Source: Synechococcus sp. KORDI-49 (GTDB lineage Bacteria; Cyanobacteriota; Cyanobacteriia; PCC-6307; Cyanobiaceae). Taken from it: a DNA stretch of 64,000 nucleotides. Shown here piece after piece: positions 48,130 to 64,000 of the stretch. The notes under the pieces were generated by a model. That model was given only the letters and a program-made list of their open reading frames with translations, searched no databases and was not told where the DNA came from. A program made the position numbers and the translations under genes. The stretch lies in contig NZ_CP006270.1 in assembly GCF_000737575.1 (NCBI RefSeq), positions 2,483,163-2,547,162 on the forward strand. Direction: 5' to 3'. The stretch's first letter is position 1; each line of letters starts with the position of its first letter.

Positions 48130-50532
48130 ATGAAGCTGCGTCAAATCGCAATCAGCAGTGGTGTCGTCATCCTTGCTGCGATGACCACGTCGTGTTCGAG
48201 TTCGCTTAAGAGCCAGTCGTCGAAGGCTGAATTCGATCGGACGGCACTCCCGATCGCGGAGCCGAAGCCTGAAAAGGTCACCAAGCTGCTGCCTTCGGAG
48301 GTGCCGCTGCCACCCCAGTGGGAAGTGAAAGCACCCGCTGATGCACCCAATGTGGTGATCATCCTGCTGGACGACGTGGGCTATGCAGCACCGTCCGCAT
48401 TCGGTGGCGTTGTGAACATGCCGACGGCTGAGAAGCTCGCCAAAAACGGACTGCGTTACAACAAGTTCCACACCACAGCGCTCTGTGCGCCGACGCGCGC
48501 GGCGCTGAAATCCGGCCGCAATCACCACAAGGTGAACACGGGTTCGATTCCGGAGATCGCCACGGGCTATGCGGGCAACTCGACGGTCGTCCCGGATTAC
48601 GCCGTTCCGGTGGCAGAGATCCTGCGCCTCAATGGCTACAACACGGCCGCCTTCGGCAAATGGCATGAAACACCAGGTCGTGAGACCACGGCAGCCGGCC
48701 CTCAGACCCGTTGGCCAACGCGTCAGGGCTTTGAGAAGTTCTACGGCTTCGTCGGCGCCGAAGACAACATGTGGGAACCCACCATTCACGATGGTGTGAC
48801 CGTTGTGGATGCTCCGAAGAAGGATCGCTATCACTTCACCGAAGACATGACCGATCAGGCGATCGGTTGGATGCGGCAGCAAAAAGCGATCAAGCCAGAT
48901 AAGCCATTTTTCATCTATTACTCCTCAGCCGGTGCCCACTCTCCGCATCATGTGGGCAAGGAATGGATTGACAAATACAAAGGAAAGTTTGATGAGGGCT
49001 GGGATGTTCTCAGGGAGCGCAATCTTCAGAACCAGATCAAGGCAGGGATTGTTCCTGAAGGCACGAAGATGGCCCAGGCACCGGACAGTATCCCCAAATG
49101 GGATAGCCTCACGCCACAGCAGCAGAAAATCTATGCGCGCCAGGCCGAGGTTTTTGCTGCCTTCACGGAGCATTCTGATTACGAAGCTGGACGTTTGATC
49201 CAGGCGATTGAAGATCTCGGCGAGCTTGATAACACCTTGGTGATCTACATCACTGGTGACAATGGCGCCAGTGTTGAGGGGGATAGGACCGGTCAGTGGA
49301 ATTGGAACCACTATCTCAATGGCATTGAAGAGACGCCTGACGAACAGGAGGCCAAGCTTGATGAGTGGGGCGGACCGACGACTTATCCCATGTATCACAT
49401 GGGTTGGGCGATCGCCTTCAACTCACCCTTTGCGCTCTCCAAGCAGGTGGCTGGTGATTTCGGTGGAACACGCAATGGCACGGTGATTCATTGGCCGAAA
49501 CGCATCAAAAAAGGTGGTGGTATTCGGACTCAGTTCTCGCACGTGAATGATGTGGCCCCCACGATCCTTGAGGCGTCTAATCTGCCGATGCCCAAAACAA
49601 TCAACGGCATCCCGCAGATCCCTATGCAGGGAACCAGCCTGATGTATACCTTTGACAATCCGGATGCCAAGGAAAAGCACAACACGCAGTACTTCGAAAT
49701 CATTGGCAACCGGGGCATCTATCACAACGGCTGGATGGCGCGGACCACAGTGATGTATCCCTGGATGGCGCCGGAACGAATGAATCCGGTTGCGGACGAT
49801 TCTGGTTGGGAGCTGTACGACACCACTAAGGATTTCAGTCTCTCGACAGATCTTGCCGAGCAGGAGCCGGAACGCCTGAAGAAGATGAAGGAGAAGTTCC
49901 TGGAACAGGCGATTGAAAATCAGGTGTTGCCACTGGATGATCGACTTCTCGAGCGTCTGGTGCCGTCCGTTGCCGGACGGCCGACCCTGTTGGGTGATCG
50001 CACGTCCATGGATCTCTATCCCTATGCCTGGAACCTGGTCGAAGACTCGATCCTCAATGTGAAAAACGTGTCGAACAGTGTGACCGCTTTTGTTGATAAG
50101 AAAGGCGACGATGAGGACGGCGTGATCTTCTCCCAGGGTGGTCGCTTTGGTGGTTGGTCGCTTTACGTTGAAAACAACAAGCCCTCCTACACCTACAACT
50201 ACTTAGGACAGCTGTTCACGTTCACGAGCGACAAGCCATTACCGACTGGTAAGTCCGAGATTCGTTTCGAGCTCGACTACGACGGCGGTGGTACTGGTAA
50301 GGGTGCTGATGTTCGGATGAAACTCAACGGCGATGTGGTCGCTGAGGGTCGCCTGGAGAAGACGATTGCATCGCGTTTCTCCATTGATGAGGGTGCTGAT
50401 GTTGGACTTGACCGTGGCTCTGCGGTCACCGTCAAGACCATTGGTCCCCGGCGTTACAGCGCCTATGGCGGCCAGATTGACAAGGTGACGATTCAGATCT
50501 ATCCCAAGGACACAGATCAGAAGAAAGGTTGA
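48130..50532 (+). CDS. Lipoprotein sulfatase (arylsulfatase family)
   Basis: An 800-residue sulfatase. A signal peptide with lipobox ends in TTSC (Cys22). The catalytic domain has the Asp pair 81-82 (IILLDDVGYAAP), the C-x-P-x-R motif CAPTR at 119-123 whose cysteine becomes formylglycine, Lys177/His179 (FGKWHE), His270 (AGAHSPHH) and Asp377-Asn378 (ITGDNGAS). The last 170 residues form a beta-rich domain (DGVIFSQGGRFGGWSLYV, then GKSEIRFELDYDGGG). The length resembles large AtsD-type enzymes. Its substrate is unknown. The gene is followed at once by a formylglycine-generating enzyme, its activator. Low GC in parts compared with neighbours on the left. Confidence 0.92.
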   Translation: MKLRQIAISSGVVILAAMTTSCSSSLKSQSSKAEFDRTALPIAEPKPEKVTKLLPSEVPLPPQWEVKAPADAPNVVIILLDDVGYAAPSAFGGVVNMPTAEKLAKNGLRYNKFHTTALCAPTRAALKSGRNHHKVNTGSIPEIATGYAGNSTVVPDYAVPVAEILRLNGYNTAAFGKWHETPGRETTAAGPQTRWPTRQGFEKFYGFVGAEDNMWEPTIHDGVTVVDAPKKDRYHFTEDMTDQAIGWMRQQKAIKPDKPFFIYYSSAGAHSPHHVGKEWIDKYKGKFDEGWDVLRERNLQNQIKAGIVPEGTKMAQAPDSIPKWDSLTPQQQKIYARQAEVFAAFTEHSDYEAGRLIQAIEDLGELDNTLVIYITGDNGASVEGDRTGQWNWNHYLNGIEETPDEQEAKLDEWGGPTTYPMYHMGWAIAFNSPFALSKQVAGDFGGTRNGTVIHWPKRIKKGGGIRTQFSHVNDVAPTILEASNLPMPKTINGIPQIPMQGTSLMYTFDNPDAKEKHNTQYFEIIGNRGIYHNGWMARTTVMYPWMAPERMNPVADDSGWELYDTTKDFSLSTDLAEQEPERLKKMKEKFLEQAIENQVLPLDDRLLERLVPSVAGRPTLLGDRTSMDLYPYAWNLVEDSILNVKNVSNSVTAFVDKKGDDEDGVIFSQGGRFGGWSLYVENNKPSYTYNYLGQLFTFTSDKPLPTGKSEIRFELDYDGGGTGKGADVRMKLNGDVVAEGRLEKTIASRFSIDEGADVGLDRGSAVTVKTIGPRRYSAYGGQIDKVTIQIYPKDTDQKKG

Positions 50533-50534
50533 GC

Positions 50535-51389
50535 GTGTCGCCATCGATCAGCCGGGATGACATGGCCGTCATCCCGGCCGGCCAATATCAACTTGGTTCC
50601 ACCGATTTCTATCCGGAGGAATCTCCGATCCGAAGGGTTACGTTGCCGTCCTTCCGGATCGACGTTGCTCCTGTGACCAACGCTCAATTTGAGCGTTTCG
50701 TTCATGCCACGGGATACGTCACGGTGTCGGAGCAACCCCCCGACCCCGTGCTGTATCCGAATCTGGCTCCGGAAGAGCAGATTCCCGAGTCAGCTGTGTT
50801 TCTTCCGCCTCCGGCCAGTGTGGATCGCAGCCAGCCTCTGGCTTGGTGGGCGTTGATCGCTGGTGCTGACTGGAGGCATCCCCGAGGTCCTGAGACGAAC
50901 CTCGATGGATTGATGGAGCATCCGGTCGTTCACGTCGCTTATGACGATGCGATCGCCTACGCCCAATGGGCTGGTAAGCGGCTTCCGACCGCAGACGAAT
51001 GGGAGGTGGCGGCGCGAGGTGGACTGGTGGCTCAGGATTATGCCTGGGGTGCTGAGATGACACCGGAGGGCCGCTGGCTGGCGAACGTCTGGCAGGGGCC
51101 GTTCCCCTGGGTCAACGAGCAGACGGATGGATGGTTCTGGACATCCCCGGTGGGTCATTTTCCAGCCAACGGCTATGGGCTGGTCGACGTCTGCGGCAAT
51201 GTCTGGGAGTGGACGTCAACGGTGTACCCCGTTCCGGAGGAAGAGCAGAAACGGCGCGTGATCAAAGGAGGGTCCTTCCTCTGCGCTGAGAACTACTGCC
51301 ATCGCTTCCGGCCTGCGGCCCTGATGGGCCAGACCCTCGACACGGCAACCTGTCACATGGGTTTCCGCTGTGCCGCTGACCTGGATTGA
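50535..51389 (+). CDS. Formylglycine-generating enzyme (sulfatase activator)
   Basis: A 284-residue FGE-sulfatase domain protein. Conserved segments are MAVIPAGQYQLGSTDFYPEE, RIDVAPVTNAQFERFV, EHPVVHVAYDDAIAYAQWAG, KRLPTADEWEVAARGG and GNVWEWTSTVY. The ending RVIKGGSFLCAENYCHRFRP carries both active cysteines (Cys250 and Cys255), the copper site of true FGE. It should convert Cys119 of the sulfatase two bases upstream to formylglycine. GTG 50535 has an AGAAAGG seven bases before it and is preferred over the TTG at 50529. No signal peptide, so it acts in the cytosol on the unfolded sulfatase. Confidence 0.93.
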   Translation: MSPSISRDDMAVIPAGQYQLGSTDFYPEESPIRRVTLPSFRIDVAPVTNAQFERFVHATGYVTVSEQPPDPVLYPNLAPEEQIPESAVFLPPPASVDRSQPLAWWALIAGADWRHPRGPETNLDGLMEHPVVHVAYDDAIAYAQWAGKRLPTADEWEVAARGGLVAQDYAWGAEMTPEGRWLANVWQGPFPWVNEQTDGWFWTSPVGHFPANGYGLVDVCGNVWEWTSTVYPVPEEEQKRRVIKGGSFLCAENYCHRFRPAALMGQTLDTATCHMGFRCAADLD

Positions 51390-51748
51390 TCCAGCAGCAT
51401 CAACAGCCCCAGCACGAGATGCAGCAAGCCAGCGGGGCCAACCATGGGGCCCTGCGCTGCGCCGGTGAAGGCAAAGCCGATCAGAAACAGGGCGGCTGCG
51501 AGGTTGTAAAGCATCAACCCAAGCCTGGCTGTGGATGGTTTGGCTTCTGGGTCGCCAGCAGACCAGCAGGAGATGCCCAGGCTGATCAGCGCCGCGCCGA
51601 ACAGCTGGGCCAGCTGATCACCACCATCAGCTAGCGGTGATCCGAACAGAAGAGCCATCACGACGCTTGGAACCAGCACCAGGGGGACACCGGTGCTGAG
51701 TTCCACCAGGCAGGAGATCCGGGTGGCATGGCGAGTGAGTTTCACCAT
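51353..51748 (-). CDS. Four-helix membrane protein of unknown function
   Basis: A 131-residue protein, from ATG 51748. Four hydrophobic segments are clear: PLVLVPSVVMALLFGS, LAQLFGAALISLGISC, LMLYNLAAALFLIGFAF and LLHLVLGLLMLLD. Family not recognised. The 3' end overlaps the end of the FGE gene by 37 bases in a convergent fashion, and its start is next to the stop of the outer-membrane gene on the same strand. Either a real gene or an accidental open frame; the clean four-helix pattern favours a gene. Confidence 0.6.
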   Translation of the reverse strand: MVKLTRHATRISCLVELSTGVPLVLVPSVVMALLFGSPLADGGDQLAQLFGAALISLGISCWSAGDPEAKPSTARLGLMLYNLAAALFLIGFAFTGAAQGPMVGPAGLLHLVLGLLMLLDQSRSAAQRKPM

Positions 51749-51756
51749 GTTTTGAA

Positions 51757-52782
51757 TCAATCGAAGAACAGTCTCAGACCCAGGTTTACACCGTGCTGAG
51801 TCACGTCGTAGTGGTCATCGGATCCGTGACCGGCGAAATCAAGTCCCCAATATTTGTATCCAAGTGACAACTGGGTTGAATTACCGAGCGTGTAGGCGAT
51901 TCCTGCCTGTGCCGTCCCGGAGAGATCACGACGGCCGCTGACTCCGAAACCAGCAGCATCGAGGTACAGGAATGCCTGCCACTGATCACTGAAGGCATAG
52001 GTGGTCTGCATCCCGATCAGCGGACTCACCCAGGTGTTGGACCATGACTCATCCCAGTCCCTCTCAAACTTTGCCTTGGCCTCTTTGGGAATCAGCACGC
52101 CAGGGCGGTTGCTGGTGGATTTGTACTCGACGTCGTTCTCAAACTCCACATCAACATCCATGGTGGCGTCCACGATGCGGGCCCCGATCAGTCCGACGAA
52201 TGAGACGTCGCCGGCTTCCATCCGAGGTTTGGCGATGGCGCCAGCGCGGAAACGCGCCGCCAGATCGACGACCGTCTGATTGAAGGTGGTATCGAGATCA
52301 ATTTTTCCTTTGGCGGTGACCCGTCGGTCCTTCACGATTCCGGGAAGGTCATTGTCGACCTGATCACGCAAAGCGTTATCCCCGCTCCAGCTGCCGACCG
52401 TCTCGGAGATCCAGGAGGAACCATGATTCACATGAGCCTGGAATCCGTAGCGCCCGTACTCCACCCCAACACGCCCGGTGAAAGCACCTGTGATCGGGGT
52501 GAGAACATCTTCCAGGTTCTGGGTCTGGCTGTTGGTATTACCCATCACCCTGATTTCGGTTGTCGTCTCCAGGGGAAGAAAACCGTAAAGATCGATGTAC
52601 GTCCGCCAGTTCTTTTCGTCGTCTTCAGTCTTTTCCGTGGGTTCATCCTCCGCTGCCTGCGTGATCAGCACCGTCTGGCTTTGCTCAGCCACAGATTCGC
52701 TCTGCTCTGCCAAAGCTGCTGATGAAAGCCCGAAGGATGCAAGCATCGAAATCGGAATGATCAGGGATCGGAACATCCGCAT
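51757..52782 (-). CDS. Outer-membrane beta-barrel protein, copy 1
   Basis: A 341-residue exported protein with a signal peptide (MRMFRSLIIPISMLASFGLS, then SAALA). The mature part begins with an acidic stretch. The barrel signature is WRTYIDLYGFLPLETTT, later FRAGAIAKPRMEAGDVSFVG, and DQWQAFLYLDAAGFGVSG, then GNSTQLSLGYKYWGLDF and the ending LGLRLFFD. Alternating strands and the aromatic end fit an outer-membrane porin. A paralogue with the same segments lies at 61315-62283. Function, porin or receptor, is not known; it is divergent from the next barrel gene with a 197-base gap. Confidence 0.8.
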   Translation of the reverse strand: MRMFRSLIIPISMLASFGLSSAALAEQSESVAEQSQTVLITQAAEDEPTEKTEDDEKNWRTYIDLYGFLPLETTTEIRVMGNTNSQTQNLEDVLTPITGAFTGRVGVEYGRYGFQAHVNHGSSWISETVGSWSGDNALRDQVDNDLPGIVKDRRVTAKGKIDLDTTFNQTVVDLAARFRAGAIAKPRMEAGDVSFVGLIGARIVDATMDVDVEFENDVEYKSTSNRPGVLIPKEAKAKFERDWDESWSNTWVSPLIGMQTTYAFSDQWQAFLYLDAAGFGVSGRRDLSGTAQAGIAYTLGNSTQLSLGYKYWGLDFAGHGSDDHYDVTQHGVNLGLRLFFD

Positions 52783-52979
52783 GAGACTCAGCGAGTTTGT
52801 AAAGCAATCGCCCTGACCATACGGGGTTTTCCGATTGCGGCACAGGTCAGAGGTCAATTGCTTGAAGCTGGCCAAGCGCCCTGAAGGCATTGTCAATGCT
52901 GGTCCAATAAGACACGCGCAATTCGTACCTTTTGCACACGGTTTTTCGGCATGCTGGGCACAACAAAAGTCCTTTCCTT

Positions 52980-54029
52980 GTGAAGCTTTCTACAGCTGCC
53001 GCTCTCCTGGCGCTTACCCTGGCTCCCTTCACTTCCGGACAGGCATCGGCAGAGAATGTTGATCGTTCGGCAGGATCGGACTTCGATCACACGCCTCTGA
53101 CCTTTGATCAGGATCTGGCGCAGGCTGTGGATGCTTCGTCGGAGTCGACCATTGCCCAGGCTTCGGGGAGCTCGAAGACGTCCGGGGCTGCCGCTGCTGA
53201 GGCATCAGGCCCGAGCCAGGAAGCTCTGGCCAAAGCCGCCCAGAACCCGATCGCCAGCATGATCAGCATTCCGATCCAGTGGAATGCGACTCCGAATACC
53301 CAATGGGCTCCCAATGCCATTGATCCCGACGCCGATCACGACAAGGTTCTGAACGTTGTCAATGTCCAGCCGGTCTTCCCCTTCAAGCTGAGCGATGACT
53401 GGACGGTCGTCACCCGCACCATCGTTCCATTTCTGGGTGTTCCCTGGGCTGATCCGAAAATTGGTGTGACGGAGGCTGGTGATCCTTATCTCAAGCGCTG
53501 GGATCAGGAGCAGCGTGTTGGCATCGGTGATATCAACCCATCGGCCTTCTTTGTGCCGACCATGGAAGGTGATTTCACCTTCGGTTTCGGTCCCACCGTC
53601 GGGATCCCTGTTTCGGATGGTCCTCTCGGGTCGGGCAAGTGGACAGCCGGTCCTGCCGTTGTCGGTGTATACACCAAGGGGCCTTGGGTTGTCGGTGGAT
53701 TGGTGAACAACATGTGGTCGTTCGCCGGTGATGAAGATCGGGCTGATGTGAACAAGATGCTGTTTCAGCCTTTCATCAACTACAACCTGCCGAAGGGCTG
53801 GTATTTCTCCTTTTCACCAATCATCACGGCTGACTGGGAAAACGAAGACAATGGCTGGACGGTGCCTGTCGGCGCCGGTGTGGGCCGCGTGTTCAAGGTT
53901 GGGAAGCAACCGATCAACATGTCACTCCATGGTTATTACAACGTCGTCAAGCCTGAGATTGGCGGCGAAGAACTTCTTGGCGATTGGACCATCCGAACCC
54001 AGATTCAGTTCCTGATTCCGGCTGGCTGA
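52980..54029 (+). CDS. Outer-membrane beta-barrel protein, transporter-like (neuromedin-U/MetA-type)
   Basis: A 349-residue protein from GTG 52980. It has a signal peptide (KLSTAAALLALTLAPFTSGQ, then ASA) and an Ala/Ser-rich linker (GSSKTSGAAAAEASGPSQE). The barrel includes NPIASMISIPIQWNATPN, FPFKLSDDWTVVTRTIVPFLG, FTFGFGPTVGIPVSD and a final LGDWTIRTQIQFLIPAG. Such barrels are often labelled neuromedin U or phenol-pathway MetA-like by databases. It is not homologous by eye to the other two barrels. Upstream starts at 52932 exist but add residues before the signal peptide. No gene lies in 52783-52979. Confidence 0.75.
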   Translation: MKLSTAAALLALTLAPFTSGQASAENVDRSAGSDFDHTPLTFDQDLAQAVDASSESTIAQASGSSKTSGAAAAEASGPSQEALAKAAQNPIASMISIPIQWNATPNTQWAPNAIDPDADHDKVLNVVNVQPVFPFKLSDDWTVVTRTIVPFLGVPWADPKIGVTEAGDPYLKRWDQEQRVGIGDINPSAFFVPTMEGDFTFGFGPTVGIPVSDGPLGSGKWTAGPAVVGVYTKGPWVVGGLVNNMWSFAGDEDRADVNKMLFQPFINYNLPKGWYFSFSPIITADWENEDNGWTVPVGAGVGRVFKVGKQPINMSLHGYYNVVKPEIGGEELLGDWTIRTQIQFLIPAG

Positions 54030-54085: not shown

Positions 54086-54189
54086 GATGGCTTCGTGTTT
54101 CAAATTTGACTTGAAGCTGTACTGACCATTCTTTGTGTTTGTACAAATCGAGCATTCATTTCGGTCAAGGTCTCAATCGTGGCATTCAT

Positions 54190-55374
54190 ATGTATGGTTC
54201 GCGGGCGTATCAATGGGTGTTTTTTGTGAAATTGCAGGGTGTTCGCCGATCTCTGTTCGCAACGCTTCCCTTTGCCGCAACCCTGGGTCTTTTGACCGCA
54301 ACCTTCGGATCACCATTCAATCCAGCGGCTGCAAAAACCCTCCCGCAGCCAGCTGGTCTCACTGAGTCCGGTCCCAAGGATTGTCCGTCTCCAGCTGTGG
54401 CTATGAACCACAACGAAGTAACTCCGGTCACCAAGGCCAACTATGCCGTGGCGGAAACGGAAGTGATCCTCGCGGACTATGTGCGCAAAATCGCCAAAGG
54501 CACCTGCGCGGATGGCATGGGTCTGTTCCTGCATCAGAAGGGTGCAATGGATCCGAAGGAACGCACTATTTTGCGACCGAATTTCGATACCCTCTATTCC
54601 TTTGCTGTTCTGGATCTCAATAGCCCCGCCACGGTCGTGCTCCCTGAGACCGACCGTTATCAGATCCTCGAAGTGGTGAACGAGGAACATTGGATTCCGC
54701 TGGAGACTGCGAATCCCGGTGGATATCAACTCACCAAAGAGTCGATGGGAAGTCGTTATGTGTTGGTCCTTGTGCGCACTCGGGTGAACATGCAGGATCC
54801 TGAAGATCTTAAAAAAGCTGGGATAGTCCAGGATCAGATTGGCTTGGAGCAAGCGGAGAAGGGCGAATTTGTTGCAAAAAACAAATACGACATGGATGAA
54901 ATTCTGGCGATGCGTGCTGATTACAACAAACGCTTGCAGCCTGAGGGTGTGACCTCCGAGATGGCCTTTGGTAAGAAGGGAGAGATCAGCGAGGAGATGC
55001 GTAATTTTGGTGTTGCTGTTGGTTGGGGTGGGCTCACCAAGCAGGGAGCGGTGTATCCCATTCCCAAAGTTGTGGATTCCACTGATCCTCAAACCCTTAC
55101 CTTGAAAGATGTTCCCAGCGACCCACGAGCTTTTTGGTCGGTCACTGTCTATGACAAGCAAGGGTTTTCAGTGGGTGAAAAGTACAATGTGAACAGCGCT
55201 TTCGCGAAGAAAAATGAAAAAGGTGAGTATGTAATTCATTTTGGAGGTGATAAGAGTAAGGACAACTATCTTGATATCTACCCTGGCTGGAATGTTGTGC
55301 TGCGAATTTACTCTCCAACCGAGGCTTATTTCAATGGCAGCTGGATCCCTCCGCAGTTTCAACCCGCGCAGTGA
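54190..55374 (+). CDS. DUF1254/DUF1214 exported protein, short form 1
   Basis: A 394-residue protein with a hydrophobic signal-like start (RRSLFATLPFAATLGLLTAT). DUF1254 part: ANYAVAETEVILADYVRKIA, then ILRPNFDTLYSFAVLDLNSP and SMGSRYVLVLVRTRVNMQD. DUF1214 part: AFWSVTVYDKQGFSVGEKYN and YLDIYPGWNVVLRIYSP. Cys65 and Cys106 are 41 residues apart, as in its neighbour, and may form a disulfide. This family is widespread but has no accepted function. GC is markedly low (55201-55260 is 33%). Start uncertain: ATG 54190 or GTG 54226. Two further pairs of related genes follow. Confidence 0.85.
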   Translation: MYGSRAYQWVFFVKLQGVRRSLFATLPFAATLGLLTATFGSPFNPAAAKTLPQPAGLTESGPKDCPSPAVAMNHNEVTPVTKANYAVAETEVILADYVRKIAKGTCADGMGLFLHQKGAMDPKERTILRPNFDTLYSFAVLDLNSPATVVLPETDRYQILEVVNEEHWIPLETANPGGYQLTKESMGSRYVLVLVRTRVNMQDPEDLKKAGIVQDQIGLEQAEKGEFVAKNKYDMDEILAMRADYNKRLQPEGVTSEMAFGKKGEISEEMRNFGVAVGWGGLTKQGAVYPIPKVVDSTDPQTLTLKDVPSDPRAFWSVTVYDKQGFSVGEKYNVNSAFAKKNEKGEYVIHFGGDKSKDNYLDIYPGWNVVLRIYSPTEAYFNGSWIPPQFQPAQ

Positions 55375-55441: not shown

Positions 55442-56548
55442 ATGAATCGTTTCTCTCCTCGTTTTGTTTCTCTGATGGCGGCGGGTTTTGGTCTGGCAGT
55501 CATGTCTGCCGCAGACCTCTCCCTGCCGTTCATGCCATCGGTTCGTGCCCAGCAATGTCCAAAGCCTGCTTTGGTGATGGCCAGTGACGCACCTGCTCCG
55601 GTGACGAAGCTGAATTTTGCAGATGCTGAAACGCAGACGGTGTTCACCAAATACCTCGCCAAAGTTGCTGCAGCGACTTGCAGCAGTGGGCTGGGCGTGA
55701 TCGCCCATGAAACCCAGCCTGCCGATCCAAAAGATCGTACGGTGATCCGAATCAACTTTGATACGCTCTATTCTTGGTTGATTCTCGATCTGACAAGTCC
55801 GGCAACATTCACTCTGCCGGAGACGGGGGGTCGTTACCAGAGCGCCATGGTTGTGAATGCACAGGGTTACACCTATGTGAACAAAAATCCTGGTGCCTAC
55901 ACCCTCACGCAGGACGATGTGGGCAGTCGCTACGCCACGGTGGCTTTTCGCACGGGCGTGAATATTCAGGATCCTGCTGATGTGGCCAAGGCGCAGGCCC
56001 TGCAGGCGAAGTTATCGGTGCAGCAGGCGGATTCTGGTGAAATGGCCTTCCCTCACCCATGGAACCAGGAGCAGATGCTTGCCCTGCGAGCGGACTACAA
56101 CAACGAACGTAATGAGAAAGGTGTGAAGTCGGAAGACCTGTTCGGCCGTAAGGGAGAAATCACCCCGGAGCAGAACAACATGGGTGTAGCTGTGGGGATC
56201 GGCGGATTGCCAAAGGAAGGGGCTGTTTATCTGTTCTACACACCATCATCATCTGAACCTCAATCGTTGACACTCAAAGATGTTCCGAATGGCGACAATG
56301 CTTTTTGGTCGCTCACGGTGTACGACAAAGATGGATTCCCGGTTGGAGAGAATTTCAATGTGAACAGTGCATTTGCCAAGGCCAACGCCCAGGGTGAAGT
56401 GACGCTTAATTTTGGTGGTGATAAGACGCAACCCAACTATTTGGAGATTTACCCGGGCTGGAATGCAACCTTCAGGATTTACAACCCGAAGCCTGCCTAT
56501 TTTGATGGCAGCTGGGTGCGCCCCGAGTTGCAACCTGCGAAGGATTGA
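55442..56548 (+). CDS. DUF1254/DUF1214 exported protein, short form 2
   Basis: A 368-residue protein with a signal peptide (MNRFSPRFVSLMAAGFGLAV, cleaved near VRAQ). It is clearly a paralogue of the gene before it: KDRTVIRINFDTLYSWLILD, DVGSRYATVAFRTGVNIQD, AFWSLTVYDKDGFPVGENFN and YLEIYPGWNATFRIYNP. Cys39 and Cys80 are also 41 residues apart. A tandem duplication is the simple explanation. Spacing to the previous stop is 67 bases, so they may share an mRNA. Function unknown; periplasmic. Confidence 0.87.
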   Translation: MNRFSPRFVSLMAAGFGLAVMSAADLSLPFMPSVRAQQCPKPALVMASDAPAPVTKLNFADAETQTVFTKYLAKVAAATCSSGLGVIAHETQPADPKDRTVIRINFDTLYSWLILDLTSPATFTLPETGGRYQSAMVVNAQGYTYVNKNPGAYTLTQDDVGSRYATVAFRTGVNIQDPADVAKAQALQAKLSVQQADSGEMAFPHPWNQEQMLALRADYNNERNEKGVKSEDLFGRKGEITPEQNNMGVAVGIGGLPKEGAVYLFYTPSSSEPQSLTLKDVPNGDNAFWSLTVYDKDGFPVGENFNVNSAFAKANAQGEVTLNFGGDKTQPNYLEIYPGWNATFRIYNPKPAYFDGSWVRPELQPAKD

Positions 56549-56606: not shown

Positions 56607-56730
56607 ACGCAGATCAACGGATTGTTTTAATTTTTTGAAATGCGTACAAATTGGACCATCCGCGTTGCCTTCTTGACTGTCAGCTCGCGGCCGTATCTCT
56701 AATTTGCAATGGAATGAATCCTTTCTTCGG

Positions 56731-58320
56731 ATGACCAAGACGCGTCGGTTCGGTCCGGTCTTCAAAGGACTCTCCACTGTCACGCTTGCAGCGATGCTTG
56801 CCGTTGGCTGTTCGAGCAAGCCTGATGCCGGAACGCAGGCCATGAACAAGGGCAGTGGTGATGTGCCTGAGGGGTACACCACGGCCATTCCGGACGAGCT
56901 GATGACGCCGGATTCGGTGGAGACCAGTGCCGGCACGTTCAACTTCTTTGACGGCATGCCCGATGCGGCCACCGCCGAGGCCAGTTTTGACAACCTCAAG
57001 TTCATCCGGGCTTATGAGACGTTCCTCACGATGATGCCTGCGGCCAGCATCGAGATGTTGCGGGCTGGACATGCCTCTCAGGGAGTGACGGATCACACCA
57101 AGGTCATGTTGATGGCCCCGCTGAATTCCAACCCCCTCTTTCTCACGGGGAACACCGATACGGTGTACGGCTCCACCTTCTTCAATCTGGAAGAGACCGG
57201 ACCGATGGTGATCGAGATTCCGGCAGGTCTTGGCCCTGGCACCATCAATGATGCATTTTTCCGCTTTGTGGCCGATACCGGAGCTCCCGGGCCGGACAAG
57301 GGCAAAGGTGGCAAGTATCTGATCCTCGGTCCTGATGATAAGGAGCCTGAGAACACCGATGGCTATTTCGTTTTCCGCTCTCCCAGTTACTCCAACTGGT
57401 TGATTTTAAGAGCCTTCCTCGATGATGAGGGTAAGCCGGATCAGGCTGTTGCGAACTATAAGAAAGGCCTCAGGCTCTACCCACTTTCCATGAAAGACAA
57501 CCCTCCTGAAATGACTTTTATTCAGGGAGGTGAGGGTGTATTTAACACGGTTCATGCGAATAATTTCCACTTCTTTGAAGAGCTGGATACGGTTATTCAG
57601 CGGGAGCCGATCAATCTGCTTGATCCTGAATTAAGAGGTCTGGCATCATCGATTGGTCTGGCAAAAGGCAAGCCTTTTGCACCCAGCCCGCAGGAAAAAG
57701 AACTCCTGGAGGAGGCGGTGCAGGTGGGTGTGGCTTATGTGCGTGCTGATATGGGCAAACCTCGCAACCCCGACGTTTATTTCTACGAAGGTAAGCAATG
57801 GTTTACACCGTTTGGTGGTGGAAGCCACGAATGGCTGATTGATGGTGGTAAAGGAGGTCGGAATCTCGATGCTCGCAATAACTTCTTCTGGGGTTACACC
57901 GTCAATACGCCGGCGATGGTGCTGAAGATGGTGGGCGTTGGCTCCCAGTACGGGGTGGTGGCTACAGATTCCACTGGCGCCTATCTCGATGGCAGCAAGA
58001 CCTACAAATTCACGGTTGAGGCCGATGTTCCGGCGAAGGATTTCTGGTCGATGGTTGCTTATGACCCTCAGACCCGTTCTGAGCTGCAGACCGATCAGCT
58101 TCTTCCCAGCAAGAACAGCAAGCGCAATCAAGACATGGTTGTGAATGCTGACGGAACCACTGATCTCTATTTCGGCCCCACAGCACCGAAAGGCATGGAA
58201 GCGAATTGGATTCAAACGGTTCCTGGAAAGGGCTGGTTCGCTGTCTTCCGTCTCTATGGCCCGCTTCAACCCTGGTTCGACAAAACCTGGCAGCTCAACG
58301 ACATCGAGCAGGTCAAGTGA
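56731..58320 (+). CDS. DUF1254/DUF1214 lipoprotein, long form 1
   Basis: A 529-residue protein. Signal peptide with lipobox LAVGC (Cys27). The family opening is YTTAIPDELMTPDSVETSAG, followed by FNFFDGMPDAATAE. LTGNTDTVYGSTFFNLEETG and GPDKGKGGKYLILGPDDKEP, then later FTVEADVPAKDFWSMVAYDP and GWFAVFRLYGPLQPWFDKTW, are the DUF1254 and DUF1214 hallmarks. It is larger than the short forms and shares its special segments with the gene after it. Likely tethered to a membrane and facing the periplasm. No activity is known. A TTG at 56704 is an unlikely alternative start. Confidence 0.87.
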   Translation: MTKTRRFGPVFKGLSTVTLAAMLAVGCSSKPDAGTQAMNKGSGDVPEGYTTAIPDELMTPDSVETSAGTFNFFDGMPDAATAEASFDNLKFIRAYETFLTMMPAASIEMLRAGHASQGVTDHTKVMLMAPLNSNPLFLTGNTDTVYGSTFFNLEETGPMVIEIPAGLGPGTINDAFFRFVADTGAPGPDKGKGGKYLILGPDDKEPENTDGYFVFRSPSYSNWLILRAFLDDEGKPDQAVANYKKGLRLYPLSMKDNPPEMTFIQGGEGVFNTVHANNFHFFEELDTVIQREPINLLDPELRGLASSIGLAKGKPFAPSPQEKELLEEAVQVGVAYVRADMGKPRNPDVYFYEGKQWFTPFGGGSHEWLIDGGKGGRNLDARNNFFWGYTVNTPAMVLKMVGVGSQYGVVATDSTGAYLDGSKTYKFTVEADVPAKDFWSMVAYDPQTRSELQTDQLLPSKNSKRNQDMVVNADGTTDLYFGPTAPKGMEANWIQTVPGKGWFAVFRLYGPLQPWFDKTWQLNDIEQVK

Positions 58321-58361
58321 GCCCTGTCATGCCTGAAACCTCTCCCACCTTTCGCTCTCCC

Positions 58362-59915
58362 ATGAAACGCTTCACCCGCCTTCAGCTTGTTCTCGCTTCC
58401 GCTCTGCTCGTAGTCGGAAGTGGAGTTGTTCTCAAAGCCGACAACCACATCCCCAAGGGGTACAACACGCCAATCCCTGTTGATGTGTTGACGCCCGATT
58501 CGGTTCAAACCCGAATCGGCACGTTCAATTATTTCGATGGTTTCCCCGATGACGAAACCATGCTCAAGGCCCGCCGTCAGGTGGATCTCGGCCGTGGCGT
58601 TCAGACATTCCTGAACTTCATGCCGGCTGCCTCGCTGGAGATGCTGTACGTGGGCCATCGCGATGGTTACGGCATGAAGCCGAACCAGGACATCGGCATC
58701 TTTGACGATCTGATGAGCTCCAAGTCGCTCTGGCTTACCGGCAACACGGACACCGTGTATGCCTCGGCATTCATGGATCTCAGCGATGGGCCCATGGTGG
58801 TGGAAGTTCCTGCCGGTACAGGGCCTGGAACAGTGAATGATGCCTTCTTCCGCTTTGTGGTGGACATGGGTGGTCCTGGACCGGACAAAGGCAAAGGTGG
58901 CAAATATCTGATTCTTGGCCCCGGTCAGGAGGCTCCTGCGAGCACGGAAGGCTATTTCGTGGCCAAGACCCCGAGCAAGATCAACTGGCTGATCCTTCGC
59001 GGTTTCCTGGATCAGGAAGGCAAAACAGATACGGCCAAGAACGCGTTCAAAAACAGCCTCAAGGTTTATCCCTACGCCAAGAAGGACAACCCTCCGGCCA
59101 ATACCTTCAAAAACCTCACTGACTGGTCGGTGAACACGATTCACGCCAACAACTTCAAGTTCTATGAGGAACTGGATGAAGTGATTCAACGGGAGCCCAC
59201 TGAGATGTTCTCCCCGGAATTGCTCGGCATGGCATCCGCGATTGGGATTCAAAAGGGCAAGCCTTTCCAACCCTCTGAGGAGCAGAAGAAACTTCTCACC
59301 GAAGCGGTGCAGATCGGCAATGCTGCTGCCCGATCGATTCTGTTTGCACCAGTGGATCCCCGTTACTACCTCTATCCCGAAAAAGCGGGTTATTGGCAAA
59401 CCGGATTCCCTGGCGGTAGCCACGAATGGCTCGTGAATGGTGGCAATGGTGGCCGTGACATGGACGGCCGCACCCTGTTCTTCTATCTGGCCACGGTGAA
59501 CACGCCGGCGATGGCTTTGGAGCTCCCTGGAGTGGGCTCCCAGTACGCCTTCTCCTCCCGGGATGGCGACGGTGAGTATCTGGATGGCTCCAAAACCTAC
59601 AAACTCACCATTCCTGCCAATGCACCAGCGAAGGATTTCTTCTCCTTTGTTGTGTACGACCCACAGACGCGTTCCATGCTTCAGAGCGAGGAGATGCCTT
59701 ACCCGAGCAAGAACAACAAGCGCAACAAGGACATGGTGAAGAATGCTGATGGCAGCATTGATCTTTACTTTGGCCCCGAAGCACCAGCTGGTCAGGAGCA
59801 GAACTGGATCAAGACCGTGTCCGGCAAAGGCTGGTTCGGCATCTTCCGCCTGTATGGGCCTTTGGATCCCTGGTTCAAGCGCACCTGGAAGCTCGGATCG
59901 ATCGAAAAGGTCTGA
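58362..59915 (+). CDS. DUF1254/DUF1214 exported protein, long form 2
   Basis: A 517-residue paralogue of the gene 41 bases before it. It starts with a signal peptide (MKRFTRLQLVLASALLVVGS), not a lipobox. Then come YNTPIPVDVLTPDSVQTRIG, LTGNTDTVYASAFMDLSDGP, GPDKGKGGKYLILGPGQEAP, LTIPANAPAKDFFSFVVYDP and GWFGIFRLYGPLDPWFKRTW. Conserved segments track long form 1 along the whole length, so a tandem duplication is evident. The ATG at 58329 gives 11 extra residues. The second copy is more GC-rich than the first, which suggests a different age or selection. Confidence 0.87.
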   Translation: MKRFTRLQLVLASALLVVGSGVVLKADNHIPKGYNTPIPVDVLTPDSVQTRIGTFNYFDGFPDDETMLKARRQVDLGRGVQTFLNFMPAASLEMLYVGHRDGYGMKPNQDIGIFDDLMSSKSLWLTGNTDTVYASAFMDLSDGPMVVEVPAGTGPGTVNDAFFRFVVDMGGPGPDKGKGGKYLILGPGQEAPASTEGYFVAKTPSKINWLILRGFLDQEGKTDTAKNAFKNSLKVYPYAKKDNPPANTFKNLTDWSVNTIHANNFKFYEELDEVIQREPTEMFSPELLGMASAIGIQKGKPFQPSEEQKKLLTEAVQIGNAAARSILFAPVDPRYYLYPEKAGYWQTGFPGGSHEWLVNGGNGGRDMDGRTLFFYLATVNTPAMALELPGVGSQYAFSSRDGDGEYLDGSKTYKLTIPANAPAKDFFSFVVYDPQTRSMLQSEEMPYPSKNNKRNKDMVKNADGSIDLYFGPEAPAGQEQNWIKTVSGKGWFGIFRLYGPLDPWFKRTWKLGSIEKV

Positions 59916-59930
59916 TCAATCCGTGTAACC

Positions 59931-60001: not shown

Positions 60002-61309
60002 GTGGCATTCAATCGCTCTGTTGATGTTGTTGTGATCGGCGGTGGTTTCGCCGGGATCACGGCTGCTCGGGATCTTCAAAAGCGCGGACTCACCACCCTT
60101 GTTCTGGAAGCTCGCGATCGCCTCGGCGGTCGGACCTGGCACAAGGAGGTGAATGGTTTTGCGGTGGAACTCGGTGGAACCTGGATTCATTGGACCCAGC
60201 CATTCGTCTGGGCGGAAAAAGAACGCTATGGCCTTGAAATTCAGGAAACCCCCGGCTGTGCTGCAGAGCGGATTGCGATCAAGACCGGCGATCAGGTGCA
60301 TGACCTGCGTGAAGACCAGCTGGCTGAATTTGTTGATGGATTTCATCAGTTTTTTGCAGCATCCAAGGCGGTGTGGGAGCTCCCTTACGACTCCCGTCAC
60401 ACGCGTGAGGCGATTGTCGAATGTGATGCTCAGACGGTGGCTGATCGGATGAATGCTCTGGAGCTCACTCCCCTGCAGCGGACTGCTGTCGGGGGCATGC
60501 TCGAGATTCTTTCGATGAATCAACCTGAGAATGCTTCCTATGTGGAGATGATGCGTTGCTGGTCGCTGACTGGCTGGAATTACGAACTGTTCAACGACAC
60601 TGCTGCCCGTTACAAGTTCACGAACGGGACTGGCGCTCTCGTTTCTGCGATTGCAGAAGATGGTGCTTTTGAAGTGGCGCTGAACACGTCTGTGTCCTCT
60701 GTTCAGCACTCAGCGACCGGTGTGTCCGTGACAACCGTGAACGGTGAGGTTGTGACTGCCAAGCGTGCTGTCGTGACTGTGCCGCTCAATGTGTTGAACA
60801 GTGTTTCGTTTGATCCGCCGCTCTCGACGGTGAAGCAAGAGGCTTCGCAGCTGAAGCATGTCGGGGGCGGATACAAGGTGTTTTTCGAGGTGGAGGGTGA
60901 CCCCGGAGCGGTGATGACCCTGTCCCGATCCACCGATTCACCCCTGATCGGCAGCTTCACCTACAAGCGCGGCGAGCAGCATTCGGTGTTGGCCGGATTC
61001 AGTCTCGAGCCCGGTGCCCTGGAGAAGCCGCTCTCTGAGTGGCAGACCGTTCTCGAGGAATTCATGCCTGGGGTCCGTCTGTTGTCCACGTTTGGTCACG
61101 ACTGGGGTGATGACGCCCTTTCCAATGGCAGCTGGTGCACCTACCGACCCGGTTGCTTCGGACGCTTCGCCGATGAGCTTCCGCGTCACGAAGGTCATCT
61201 GTACTTCGCCTCCGGTGACACCACCGAGGGGTGGCGGGGCTTCATTGAAGGTGCGATCAGCAGTGGATCGAAGGCCGCTGTGGCTGTTGCTCACAGTTTG
61301 GCCTCCTGA
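60002..61309 (+). CDS. Flavin-containing amine oxidase family protein
   Basis: A 435-residue flavoprotein from GTG 60002. The dinucleotide fold is VDVVVIGGGFAGITAARDLQ, followed by ARDRLGGRTWHKEVNG and ELGGTWIHWTQPF. The C-terminal FAD segment is HLYFASGDTTEGWRGFIEGA. These mark the monoamine oxidase/polyamine oxidase family. It has no signal peptide, so it should act in the cytosol, unlike most products of this block. The amine substrate is not known. It ends 5 bases from the convergent barrel gene. Confidence 0.9.
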   Translation: MAFNRSVDVVVIGGGFAGITAARDLQKRGLTTLVLEARDRLGGRTWHKEVNGFAVELGGTWIHWTQPFVWAEKERYGLEIQETPGCAAERIAIKTGDQVHDLREDQLAEFVDGFHQFFAASKAVWELPYDSRHTREAIVECDAQTVADRMNALELTPLQRTAVGGMLEILSMNQPENASYVEMMRCWSLTGWNYELFNDTAARYKFTNGTGALVSAIAEDGAFEVALNTSVSSVQHSATGVSVTTVNGEVVTAKRAVVTVPLNVLNSVSFDPPLSTVKQEASQLKHVGGGYKVFFEVEGDPGAVMTLSRSTDSPLIGSFTYKRGEQHSVLAGFSLEPGALEKPLSEWQTVLEEFMPGVRLLSTFGHDWGDDALSNGSWCTYRPGCFGRFADELPRHEGHLYFASGDTTEGWRGFIEGAISSGSKAAVAVAHSLAS

Positions 61310-61314
61310 TCGGA

Positions 61315-62283
61315 TCACTCGAACAGGATGCGAAGTCCGACGTTCAGGCCGTGCTGTTTGGCGTCGTATCCGTTGTCGCTGCCATCAGCGAGGTAATTGA
61401 GCCCGAAATATTTGTAGGAGAGAGATAACTGAGTTGAATTCCCGATTGTGTAGGCGATACCGGCCTGGGCGATTCCGCTGAGGTCCTCTCGTCCGGAGAG
61501 ACCGAATCCAGCCGCGTCCAGGTAGAGGAAGGCCTGCCAGTCGTCACTCAACGTGTAGTTGGCATGCATGCCGATCAACGGCTGCACCCAGGTGTGCGAC
61601 CAGGCTGAATCGAAGCTCTGCGTCTTGGACCGCTCGGACTCCAGAATCGGCCCCTCATAGCTGGATGCGAGTTTCACATCCACATCACCACTGATGGTGC
61701 CTCCCACAATCCGCGCACCGGCGAAACCGACAAATGTCGCCTCACCAGGTTCCATGCGGGGCCGTTGCACAGCTCCGGCTCTGTAGCGGAGAGCCACGTC
61801 GACCATCGCCTGCTCCAGTTGAAAGTCGCCATCGAGATCCCCGCGAAGGGTGAGCCGTCGGTTCACCTCATCTCCGGTGAGACGACGGTTGCGGGAGCGA
61901 TCCAGGGACGTCCACGATGAGCCACCGAAATCACCCGCAAACCGGCTGTAATTCAGAGCCGTCTGCAGTCCCCAGCGTCCTTTCTCGAGTCCCGCTCGAA
62001 CGGTCATCAGGCCCGTCAGATGATCGAGAACATCGCGAAGGTCCCAGGAGAGGGTGTCGCTGTTTCCATTCAGGGTCACATCGGTGTCTGCCGACAGCGG
62101 TGCGAAGCCGTAAAGATCCAGGTTGAGTCGCCAATTGTTGTCTTCTTCCGCATCCGTCGTGTCTGTCGGAACTGCATCTTGCTGAGCAACACGCAGAGGT
62201 GGAGCAGGGGCTGCGAAACTTGCCGGACTGGCAAAACTCGCCAGTCCGATGATGATTGGAGCGATGAAATGATGTCGAATCAT
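61315..62283 (-). CDS. Outer-membrane beta-barrel protein, copy 2
   Basis: A 322-residue exported protein, from ATG 62283 (MIRHHFIAPIIIGLASFASP). It parallels copy 1 at 51757-52782: WRLNLDLYGFAPLSADTDV, YRAGAVQRPRMEPGEATFVG, DDWQAFLYLDAAGFGLSG, GNSTQLSLSYKYFGLNY, and the ending LNVGLRILFE. The paralogues sit on the same strand about 9 kb apart and flank the DUF1254 genes. Upstream of it on the minus strand is the propeller gene, 41 bases away, so these two may be one unit. Confidence 0.82.
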   Translation of the reverse strand: MIRHHFIAPIIIGLASFASPASFAAPAPPLRVAQQDAVPTDTTDAEEDNNWRLNLDLYGFAPLSADTDVTLNGNSDTLSWDLRDVLDHLTGLMTVRAGLEKGRWGLQTALNYSRFAGDFGGSSWTSLDRSRNRRLTGDEVNRRLTLRGDLDGDFQLEQAMVDVALRYRAGAVQRPRMEPGEATFVGFAGARIVGGTISGDVDVKLASSYEGPILESERSKTQSFDSAWSHTWVQPLIGMHANYTLSDDWQAFLYLDAAGFGLSGREDLSGIAQAGIAYTIGNSTQLSLSYKYFGLNYLADGSDNGYDAKQHGLNVGLRILFE

Positions 62284-62324
62284 TTGATCAACAGCGGTGG
62301 CTTCTGGTTGATGTTGAGACAGCC

Positions 62325-64000
62325 TCAACTTTGCTTGCGCACAGGACCCATCAGCGGGTTTTGAACTGGTCCGGCAACGCCATAGGTCACAACAAATCCC
62401 TGTCCCCCTCCAAATGTGGAGGTGCGGCCCCTGTAGGTTGGGTTGATGACGACTTCACCATCAAACCAGTTGTTGGCGCTCCAGAGGTTTCCAGCATCAT
62501 CAACGATCACATCGGTTGTCATTTGAATGACGCCGCTTTGGTAGTTGTGAATCACATCCCCAGTGGTTTTTCCGGCGGGGCAATTGGCGGGATTGACGCC
62601 GCAGATGTGAGTCAAGCTTTGGCCATAGAGATTGCCGACCCAGACGTTGTCATTGCCGTCGATTGACACACCCCAGGGGATATAAGCGGTGCCTTTGGCG
62701 ATGTCTGGCTTGACGACTTCCATGTCGGGTGAGATCAAGCCAACCATGCCAGTCTGTGTGATGGTGGGGTTGGTCAAAAGGTATTCAGCACCGGCTTCAA
62801 ACTCCTCCATGATGGTTTTGGGTTGTGGCGCATTGGCGGGGATGTTGGGCGGCATTTTCGCGCCTGGAGGTAGTGCTCCCTGAGGGGAATTGGATTGCTG
62901 GGCAATCCATATGTGCCCTGTTGAGTCAACAGCGATTCCACGTCCCCCAAGGTTCACTTCAATCGTTTTGGCTTGATCAGGAGCATCTCCTGGAAATACG
63001 GTGAGTTTGTTGTTGTAACTGCTGCTCACCCACACTCTGTTCTGCGCGTCAACAGCGACACCGAAGGGAGCTTGAAGTCCATCAATGGTGTGGCGCTTCC
63101 CCTTGGTGTAATCACCACCGGGGAAATGAATCATGTGGTTGGCCGTGTTATCAGCAATCCACACATCTCCATTGGCGGCTGTGGCGACGCCCTGAAGCTG
63201 ACCAACTTCCCCATCAATCGTGGCTGGCCCCAGGGCTTTGCCGTCTTTGAGGTCGAACACCCCGACCATGTTGTTGAACGCACCAACCCAGGCATATTTT
63301 TCTGAGACGCCGGTCCCCCAGCCCACACCATTAATCCCTTGGCCGTTGTAACCGCTAATCGCTGGTGAGAGCGGTGTGCCACCTGGGCCAAAGTGGGTGA
63401 CGCCTCCGCCGATGTTGTTGACCACGCCGGATTGAGAGCCCGGCATCCAGTTGGTTCCACTCCACATGCTTCCTTTTCCGTCAAACATCAATTTCCCGAG
63501 TCCCAAAGCACCGCCACCGTTGAAAACCAGGGACAGTGAAAAGCTTTTGGGTTCGAACAGCAGGTAGGGCAGGGTTGCCGTGGAGCGCAGCTCGGTGGTC
63601 TTGTCGATCGGATAGCTCTGGTCGAAGAGCTTGTAGAGCTGACTGACGTTCTTCCAGGGCTGACGCGCAATGGAGGTGAGCGCTGAGAGGGTGTTCTCGC
63701 TGCCCGTCAGGCTGAGCAGTTCATCGCAGGCTTGCGTGTTCTCGGCCCCTGCACAGAGGCCCAGCAGGTTGGAGAGCACGTTCATGCGAACCGTGGTCTC
63801 GGAATTGAGCAGGTTCGAACTGCGCAGCAGCGTCTCTCCGTAGCTGCCGTTGCTGGGATTCACCAGATTGCGAACCTGGCCGGAACCGATCGCCAGAGCA
63901 CTGGCACTGCCTGTGAGCGCGTCGCCTTCAAGCAGCTGGGCATTGGGCCAGATCGATCCCACCGTGGTCAGCTCGTTCACCACGACCGATTCCGCCACCT
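62325..64000 (-). CDS. NHL-type beta-propeller protein (N-terminus outside window)
   Basis: At least 557 residues; the reading frame is open to the window edge, so the start and any signal peptide are not seen. From about residue 165 there are repeated blade segments, for example MFDGKGSMWSGTNWM, VATAANGDVWIADNTANHMI, GVAVDAQNRVWVSSSYNNKL, GIAVDSTGHIWIAQQ and GVSIDGNDNVWVGNL and VIVDDAGNLWSANNW. The D-x-x-G/N-N-x-W-V pattern is that of NHL or SMP-30-like propellers. Two cysteines, in THICGVNPANCPAG, may form a disulfide. The first 150 residues are helical, with no named domain. Function unknown; probably exported. It lies upstream of barrel copy 2 on the same strand. Confidence 0.82.
   Translation of the reverse strand, partial: VAESVVVNELTTVGSIWPNAQLLEGDALTGSASALAIGSGQVRNLVNPSNGSYGETLLRSSNLLNSETTVRMNVLSNLLGLCAGAENTQACDELLSLTGSENTLSALTSIARQPWKNVSQLYKLFDQSYPIDKTTELRSTATLPYLLFEPKSFSLSLVFNGGGALGLGKLMFDGKGSMWSGTNWMPGSQSGVVNNIGGGVTHFGPGGTPLSPAISGYNGQGINGVGWGTGVSEKYAWVGAFNNMVGVFDLKDGKALGPATIDGEVGQLQGVATAANGDVWIADNTANHMIHFPGGDYTKGKRHTIDGLQAPFGVAVDAQNRVWVSSSYNNKLTVFPGDAPDQAKTIEVNLGGRGIAVDSTGHIWIAQQSNSPQGALPPGAKMPPNIPANAPQPKTIMEEFEAGAEYLLTNPTITQTGMVGLISPDMEVVKPDIAKGTAYIPWGVSIDGNDNVWVGNLYGQSLTHICGVNPANCPAGKTTGDVIHNYQSGVIQMTTDVIVDDAGNLWSANNWFDGEVVINPTYRGRTSTFGGGQGFVVTYGVAGPVQNPLMGPVRKQS

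Follow-up and report, generated by a model that had tools for sequence, protein, structure and literature searches.

The 64,000-nucleotide stretch analysed here (the window; G000:C1:2483163-2547162) comes from the 2.59-Mb, single-contig genome of Synechococcus sp. KORDI-49 and carries, at its right end, an island of envelope genes that encodes an exported sulfatase, an FGE (formylglycine-generating enzyme), three outer-membrane barrels, four DUF1254/DUF1214 proteins, a flavin amine oxidase and an NHL-repeat propeller (Table 1). Open reading frame (ORF) calls, Pfam matches and guanine-plus-cytosine (GC) content delimit an insert of about 16.2 kb between pheS and the NAD kinase gene, starting after the pheS end at 48012 and ending just before the NAD kinase (L008:2637). 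GC content is 0.51-0.58 from 48 kb onward compared to 0.60-0.70 leftward, and it is back to 0.64-0.69 from the NAD kinase on. An original prediction, made from the letters of the window, had named this gene set, its lower GC than the genes to the left and a value of 33% at 55201-55260; ORFs and Pfam bore out the list, the GC contrast was found as described, and the local value was exact. It missed, however, the small membrane protein at 51353-51760, and the propeller that it correctly listed is in fact cut by the window edge, which the gene crosses by 355 bp to end at window-equivalent position 64355.

Table 1. Genes of the island and its two flanks, in window coordinates unless a locus is named (aa, amino acids; FGly, formylglycine)
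Feature	Position	Strand	Remarks
pheS, left flank, core gene	46840..48012	+	PF01409, E 3e-96; first listed start too far upstream
Exported lipoprotein-like FGly sulfatase, S1 type, 800 aa	48130..50532	+	PF00884, E 1e-54
FGE without signal	50529..51389	+	PF03781, E 2e-74; 4-bp overlap between its first listed start and the sulfatase stop
Small membrane protein, 135 aa	51353..51760	-	Accompanies the sulfatase block; homologs in relatives
Outer-membrane barrel A	51757..52896	-	Weak profile plus sequence; best Pfam OMP_b-brl, E 0.47, below cut-off
Outer-membrane barrel C, COG4313-like fold	52932..54029	+	AlphaFold2 model; QNPIA helix before barrel
Short DUF1254/DUF1214 protein 1, exported	54133..55374	+	PF06863, E 2.5e-12; PF06742, E 1.4e-10; start codon uncertain
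Short DUF1254/DUF1214 protein 2, exported	55442..56548	+	PF06863, E 5e-13; PF06742, E 8.5e-9
Long DUF1254/DUF1214 protein 1, VPA0735-like, likely lipoprotein	56704..58320	+	PF06742, E 5.9e-28; PF06863, E 2.6e-25
Long DUF1254/DUF1214 protein 2, exported	58206..59915	+	PF06742, E 3.2e-27; PF06863, E 6.1e-26
Flavin amine oxidase without signal sequence	60002..61309	+	PF01593, E 3e-51
Outer-membrane barrel B	61315..62328	-	Best Pfam OMP_b-brl, E 0.22, below cut-off
NHL-repeat propeller, lipoprotein-like, 676 aa	62325..64000 in window	-	PF01436, E 3.4e-12; L008:488-2518:-
NAD kinase, right flank	L008:2637-3545, beyond window		PF20143, E 5e-37

The true start of long DUF1254 protein 1 probably lies downstream of its first listed codon and that of protein 2 probably at 58362, and the annotated overlap of the two arises because the first listed codon was used. 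The small membrane protein matches no Pfam family above cut-off, and its homologs lie near an FGE or a sulfatase in L042, L043, L044, L052 and L053. A Pfam scan of 12 island proteins revealed no integrase, and the island contains no mobility gene; the closest tRNA upstream within the window already ends at 38604, and the two flanks have no direct repeats of 9-20 bases in common (inverted repeats were not sought). A split recombinase-like gene lies at the edge of the relative L044.

We found the site to be an insertion hotspot. The NAD kinase was present in all 19 genomes searched, and the interval between pheS and the NAD kinase could be read in 18 genomes, including that of the window. The gap is empty (24-81 bp) in 7 of these (G112, G131, G147, G162, G197, G181, G071) and holds variable cargo in the other 11: the island in G000, G186, G004 and G089, a propeller and barrel in G061 and G174, a propeller without a barrel in G141 and G169, and other genes in G101, G123 and G075. 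G186 and G004 carry nearly the same genes as the window in a different order, with one short DUF1254 gene in place of two in G004. Upon placing carriers and non-carriers on a pheS-surE-NAD kinase tree, we found them interleaved, as exemplified by G186, which carries the island while its close neighbours G197, G131 and G162 do not, and we therefore conclude that several gains or losses took place. Empty sites and interleaved presence thus support a horizontally acquired insert, as the original prediction had held. At the same site in G061, a ferric-reductase-like membrane protein (PF01794; L142:14984-15595) accompanies the propeller-barrel pair, and ORFs resembling it occur there in G174 and G141.

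Comparison of 20 fetched stretches resolved the island into three blocks, namely sulfatase-FGE-small membrane protein-barrel, barrel C-short DUF1254 genes-long DUF1254 pair-oxidase, and propeller-barrel. In G156 and G169, the sulfatase block and the DUF block reside at different loci. Barrels appear to have moved between blocks: in a barrel tree, barrel A clusters with the barrels of the G156 and G169 sulfatase blocks (L052/L053), barrel B clusters with the G089 barrel and with those barrels that, in G186 and G004, lie on the NAD kinase side and adjoin FGE and sulfatase, and a separate clade unites the barrels on the propeller side in G186, G004, G061 and G174. From these groupings we infer exchange of barrels between blocks, with A and B no recent tandem copy; a recent tandem duplication was rejected on the grounds of their different lineages, although both window barrels are long branches and their exact placement is unsure. 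The two barrels had been described as paralogues at the two sides of the island; the paralogy holds (48% identity over 303 amino acids), but barrel A lies inside the island. In Prochlorococcus-type islands (L046:9886-12770, L047:7381-10439), a GrrP/GrrA/GrrM cyclophane RiPP (ribosomally synthesised and post-translationally modified peptide) operon, its families checked on L046, sits between FGE and the long DUF1254 pair, and L044:12419-16203 and L049:10277-14021 add a PhoC/PAP2-like phosphatase, a methylglyoxal-synthase-like/lipid-kinase fusion and a metallophosphatase, families that were checked on L044.

The island parts group together far beyond random placement. In a survey of 201 family genomes, DUF1214 occurred in at least 54, sulfatase relatives, often weak ones, in 66, barrel C in 34, the propeller in 14 (E 1e-20) and the oxidase in 7 (E 1e-60). 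For the linkage counts, we dropped sulfatase matches below about 390 bits (keeping 41 of the 66 genomes) and barrel C fragments (keeping 31 of 34), took DUF1214 positions from the matches listed, beyond which more existed, and compared the results to random gene placement in 2.8 Mb. Within 15 kb, barrel C was found with DUF1214 in 14 of the 29 genomes that have both (null mean 1.34, maximum 6) and with a sulfatase in 13 of 22 (null mean 0.50, maximum 4), while sulfatase and DUF1214 were linked in 15 of 35 (null mean 1.97, maximum 7). Seven of the 8 oxidase copies, one per genome, lie downstream of the second long DUF1254 gene, about 0.6 kb away at most; the eighth, an additional copy in G004 (G004:C11:226330-227619), contains an internal TAG and is 61% identical to that of the window. 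DUF1214 was also present in all 14 propeller genomes, in all 7 oxidase genomes and in all 15 genomes with strong barrel A/B matches (those below 250 bits were dropped, keeping 15 of 70). Among the 11 genomes searched in the genus, DUF1214, propeller and barrel A/B have an identical distribution, each being present in the same 6, which are interleaved on the core tree and include G061 and G174, where the DUF1214 genes lie elsewhere in the genome. Hence, the grouping of the island parts exceeds chance and their functional association is supported. The originally proposed single acquired system is better read as a mosaic of mobile blocks whose occurrence is linked: the association held up in co-localisation and co-occurrence, the single unit only in part, and the gene-order comparison in relatives gave linkage above the random null without a constant block content.

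The first block points to sulfate esters. The sulfatase scores 186 bits against PF00884 (cut-off 25) and contains the segments LLDDVGY (residue 79), CAPTR (119; C-x-P-x-R), GKWHE (176), AHSPHH (269) and TGDNGAS (375), with CAPTR aligned to 7all, which is among its best solved relatives together with 1hdh, an S1_4 member. The protein has a signal sequence and a lipobox-like TTSC, which takes the plainer form LAAC in two relatives. The FGE gene directly follows, scores 251 bits against PF03781 and retains both cysteines that align with 1y1e, presumably the catalytic ones. Activation of the sulfatase by its neighbour would follow from the two families, and sulfate-ester handling by the island is well supported at the level of these sequence matches. 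Of the sulfated or amine-bearing compound that had been suggested as substrate, the sulfate part thus stands on a sulfatase with an intact FGE, whereas the amine part rests on one accessory oxidase. Sulfatase identity amounts to 87-92% in the genus of the window and in genus g34 and to 67-68% in g29; the single match in G071, at 1.604-1.607 Mb, is 68% identical. As stated in part of a study of Prochlorococcus MIT9313, its vesicles contain the sulfatase PMT_1515 and show sulfatase activity, which intact MIT9313 cells lack and which was not assigned to PMT_1515 (PMC9298688). G071 is probably the MIT9313 genome: its match falls near the expected place of the 1515th of 2269 genes (PMC4949707), and it belongs to the same genus as G029, which resembles MIT 0701 in gene content (L047, L073). 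PMT_1515 is probably the ortholog of the window sulfatase.

Barrel C, in turn, hints at the kind of ester. Its AlphaFold2 model has a predicted local distance difference test (pLDDT) score of 80, mostly above 90 in the barrel, with a long N-terminus modelled at low confidence; alignments and model agree on a conserved QNPIA segment and a helix (96-103) ahead of the first strand. The top structural matches are FapF (5o65; Z 20.0, 229 residues, 3.0 Å) and the COG4313 channel Pput2725 (4rl8; Z 19.4, 231 residues, 3.3 Å). As no profile match was obtained to PF13557, which we take to be the Pfam name of the COG4313 channel family, we consider barrel C a fold-alike of these channels and not a member. 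FapF secretes amyloid subunits, and as it too is a top match, the fold alone leaves the cargo undecided. COG4313 channels have been implicated in the uptake of hydrophobic molecules, with SphA proposed as a sphingosine channel (PMC4493636, in part) and sphA placed under the control of the AraC-type SphR (PMC3900636, in part). Together, fold and neighbours lend moderate support to a hydrophobic substrate.

Scanning named genomes with a barrel C alignment, we took the best 80 of 257 relatives and dropped L062 (mostly N), which left 79 usable loci. Of these, 44 contain a sulfatase or DUF1254 homolog (at least 100 bits) and 14 contain both. Barrel C, sulfatase and DUF1254 co-reside in records that bear the names Desulfofustis (L088), Halomicronema (L082, L084) and uncultured gammaproteobacterium (L133), and larger sets occur in the named picocyanobacteria Prochlorococcus MIT 0701 (L073) and Synechococcus UW105 (L096) and UW140 (L068), while in Synechococcus WH7803 (L067) barrel C is accompanied by two short DUF1254 genes, a barrel and an AraC gene. 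AraC genes (at least 100 bits) were found in 9 of the 80 loci, and none lies inside the island of the window. Other families recur near barrel C, among them the periplasmic DUF2092 (8 of 80 loci; L090:6891-7691 for example) and an exported HAD-type hydrolase (7 of 80; L125:12772-13818 for example), with one member of each checked. Records named Mycobacterium, Hadesarchaea and Thermoplasmata (L104, L108, L134) carry a barrel C-type outer-membrane barrel, which is likely due to mislabelling or binning contamination.

We know of no function for VPA0735, nor of a biochemical function for DUF1254/DUF1214 proteins. All four island proteins match both PF06863 and PF06742 above cut-off, with 50% identity within the short pair and 56% within the long pair. 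Long DUF1254 protein 1 is related to VPA0735 (E 9e-64), and its model superposes on 3vb9 over 456 residues at 2.1 Å (Z 47.2). The only further matches with Z of 8 or more were VPA0106 (Z 25.6) and 6ans (Z 14.6), while the C-terminal domain gave weak beta-sandwich matches (Z 4-6.5) that are no evidence of function. VPA0735 has been catalogued as a separate fold (PMC2744874, in part). The oxidase scores 176 bits against PF01593, and its nearest solved relatives are the amine oxidases 7u6l (aligned) and 7e7h, with MAO-N and a 6-hydroxynicotine oxidase among the further ones; the case for amine use by the island is weak. We rejected the idea that the oxidase replaces nitrate use: a molybdopterin oxidoreductase (PF00384) of nitrate-reductase size is encoded in 17 of the 20 genomes searched, among them each of the 7 oxidase carriers and each of the 11 genomes of the genus, and the three genomes without it (G123, G071, G029) also have no oxidase, so that no compensation is seen.

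A candidate inner-membrane transporter came from a second low-GC island of the same genome (L010:6200-12226; G000:C1 about 1422199-1428225), which encodes sulfatase 2, an SBF symporter, a DUF202 protein and an AraC regulator. Sulfatase 2, the other full-length sulfatase of the genome, is 38% identical to the island sulfatase and has no signal peptide. In G123, G075 and G169, the sulfatase 2/SBF set shares a 20-kb stretch with the DUF1254 block. The symporter occurs in 63 of the 201 family genomes (E 1e-30), 60 of which also have a sulfatase match, and in 52 of the 60 a sulfatase of some kind is encoded no more than 10 kb away (null mean 1.27, maximum 6), a proximity that suggests a transport hypothesis for the family at large. 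An exported-type sulfatase (87% identity) adjoins it only in G141.

We tentatively read the locus, with rather less than even confidence, as a horizontally mobile, modular envelope island for the scavenging or detoxification of amphipathic sulfate esters. Barrel C would let a hydrophobic ester enter or pass the outer membrane, a step suggested by its fold and in which barrels A and B may assist. The exported sulfatase, activated by FGE before export, would strip off the sulfate once outside the cytosol, either in the periplasm or on the outer membrane, a location we propose because of its signal sequence, and the four DUF1254/DUF1214 proteins may bind or process the product in the periplasm. 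The weakest step is passage across the inner membrane, for which an SBF-type symporter may serve the product or anions that are still sulfated; it is the weakest because the symporter mostly adjoins other sulfatases and was not found in G004, G186 and G101. Where the oxidase is present, amine-bearing products might finally be oxidised in the cytosol. The benefit would lie in scavenging carbon or nitrogen or in removing toxic amphiphiles rather than in sulfur supply.

Several observations weigh against this reading. The three blocks occur separately in relatives, and the G089 island, at the same site, retains barrel C, four DUF1254 genes, barrel B and the propeller without sulfatase, FGE or oxidase. 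All nulls used here ignore shared ancestry. Barrel C matches no Pfam channel family at E up to 1, and 35 of its 79 usable loci, some on short contigs, have neither partner. The 21 kb around the WH7803 barrel C contain no sulfatase. The DUF1254 fold gives no enzymatic clue, and an enzyme fold for these proteins was rejected. The symporter lies about 1.1 Mb from the island in KORDI-49, was not found at E 1e-30 in G004, G186 and G101 (whose exported sulfatases are 90-92% identical), and is seldom close to full-length relatives of the query sulfatase: 36 genomes have both, and in only 8 of them do the two lie near each other, the sulfatase then being mostly of the sulfatase-2 type, while the remaining adjoining sulfatases are shorter and weakly similar. 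The Pfam scan found no regulator among the island genes, and aligning the upstream regions of five genes yielded neither a promoter-like block kept in all rows nor an NtcA-type site, and a common regulatory motif for the island was rejected on this basis.

That the sulfatase, DUF1254 and propeller-barrel blocks are unrelated cargoes, adjacent only through an insertion-tolerant gap, seems unlikely to us but is favoured by the propeller standing there with (G061, G174) or without (G141, G169) a barrel, by the complete sulfatase-FGE-small protein-barrel set at another locus in G156 and G169, by the DUF block without sulfatase in G089 and by the three genomes that hold other genes at the site. Mere shared tolerance does not account, however, for the fact that sulfatase, DUF1254 and barrel C are linked away from this site as well (L044-L047, L049-L051), L088 and L133 being examples outside the cyanobacteria, nor for DUF1214 and the propeller co-occurring in the genus even where unlinked (G061, G174). 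We regard as improbable a role in coat or vesicle remodelling, where the sulfatase would trim sulfates from polymers on the surface of the cell itself or from what its vesicles carry, with the barrels, propeller and DUF1254 proteins as structural components of the surface or periplasm and with variation tracking phage or grazer pressure. The finding of the probable ortholog PMT_1515 in vesicles that, unlike intact cells, are sulfatase-active (PMC9298688, in part) would fit such a role, as would the insertion hotspot and the low identity of the strong barrel A matches (only 42-56%, compared to 87-92% for the sulfatase in the genus of the window and in g34), but the 12 scanned proteins include no glycosyltransferase, sulfotransferase or polysaccharide export family, and the COG4313-like barrel and the sulfatase-linked symporter point to small molecules.

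A narrower version of uptake is decidedly improbable, namely a transferable organosulfate-assimilation module through which picocyanobacteria, otherwise photosynthetic, would feed on amphipathic esters, for instance steroid, bile-alcohol or lipid sulfates, built from the COG4313-like channel, the exported sulfatase, the DUF1254/DUF1214 proteins for binding or processing in the periplasm and the SBF symporter, whose family is named for bile-acid transport; if true, it would give the DUF1254/DUF1214 proteins their first function. By far the least probable is sulfur scavenging, in which the sulfatase frees sulfate for growth under scarcity. Sulfate is not scarce in the marine habitat, the set is present in Prochlorococcus MIT 0701 (L073), of a marine genus, and the 12 scanned proteins include no sulfate-transport family; we therefore rejected sulfur limitation as the main motive, in agreement with the original prediction, which had considered it a weak one. 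In its favour, freshwater picocyanobacteria are reported to carry extra sulfatases, which the authors of that study tie to low sulfate (PMC9361551).

If the scavenging or detoxification reading is right, a mobile sulfate-ester cassette would add an organic nutrient or detoxification route to picocyanobacteria, which are usually seen as living on inorganic nutrients. It would furthermore make the vesicle sulfatase activity of Prochlorococcus genetically testable and place the DUF1254/DUF1214 proteins, for which structures have been solved and no function is known to us, into a pathway. The earlier statement that no described system has such a set agrees with the literature we searched, which yielded no description of the combination: no title on DUF1254/DUF1214 concerned such a gene set, queries combining MIT9313, arylsulfatase and Prochlorococcus, or DUF2092 and sulfatase, returned no match, and six PMT15xx locus tags led to PMC9298688 only. 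The word sulfatase appears 0, 1 and 2 times in the main texts, supplements aside, of PMC4949707, PMC5839243 and PMC7029141, and there not for Synechococcus.

To the right of the window, L009:1866-18851 is likely another island. Its DNA, at 0.41-0.47 GC, encodes a 4764-amino-acid ORF with bacterial Ig- and cadherin-like domains within the first 1481 residues, as well as tandem exported proteins of 392 amino acids each that are identical at 383 of 393 positions (stop included).

Compared to known systems, the island resembles sulfated-polysaccharide utilisation loci in combining a sulfatase with outer-membrane proteins, and differs from them in that no SusC/SusD or glycoside hydrolase family was found among the 12 scanned proteins. 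With FGly S1 sulfatases that come with an FGE, such as 7all and the Pseudomonas aeruginosa AtsA (1hdh), listed as S1_4 (PMC5066984), its sulfatase has in common the sulfatase domain, the C-x-P-x-R motif and the adjacent FGE, whereas it is set apart by its 800 residues with an extra C-terminal part, its exported, lipoprotein-like character and its DUF1254 and outer-membrane barrel neighbours. Barrel C is like the COG4313 channels (4rl8 and the P. aeruginosa SphA) in its predicted barrel and in the helix before the first strand, and as SphR adjoins sphA, so an AraC regulator lies near barrel C in some relatives; it is unlike them in its missing Pfam match, its long, low-confidence N-terminus, the QNPIA segment and its ties to sulfatase and DUF1254 genes. 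Finally, long DUF1254 protein 1 has the two domains and the fold of VPA0735 (2p3y, 3vb9), while the island, in distinction to VPA0735, contains four DUF1254/DUF1214 copies in two tandem pairs together with an oxidase.

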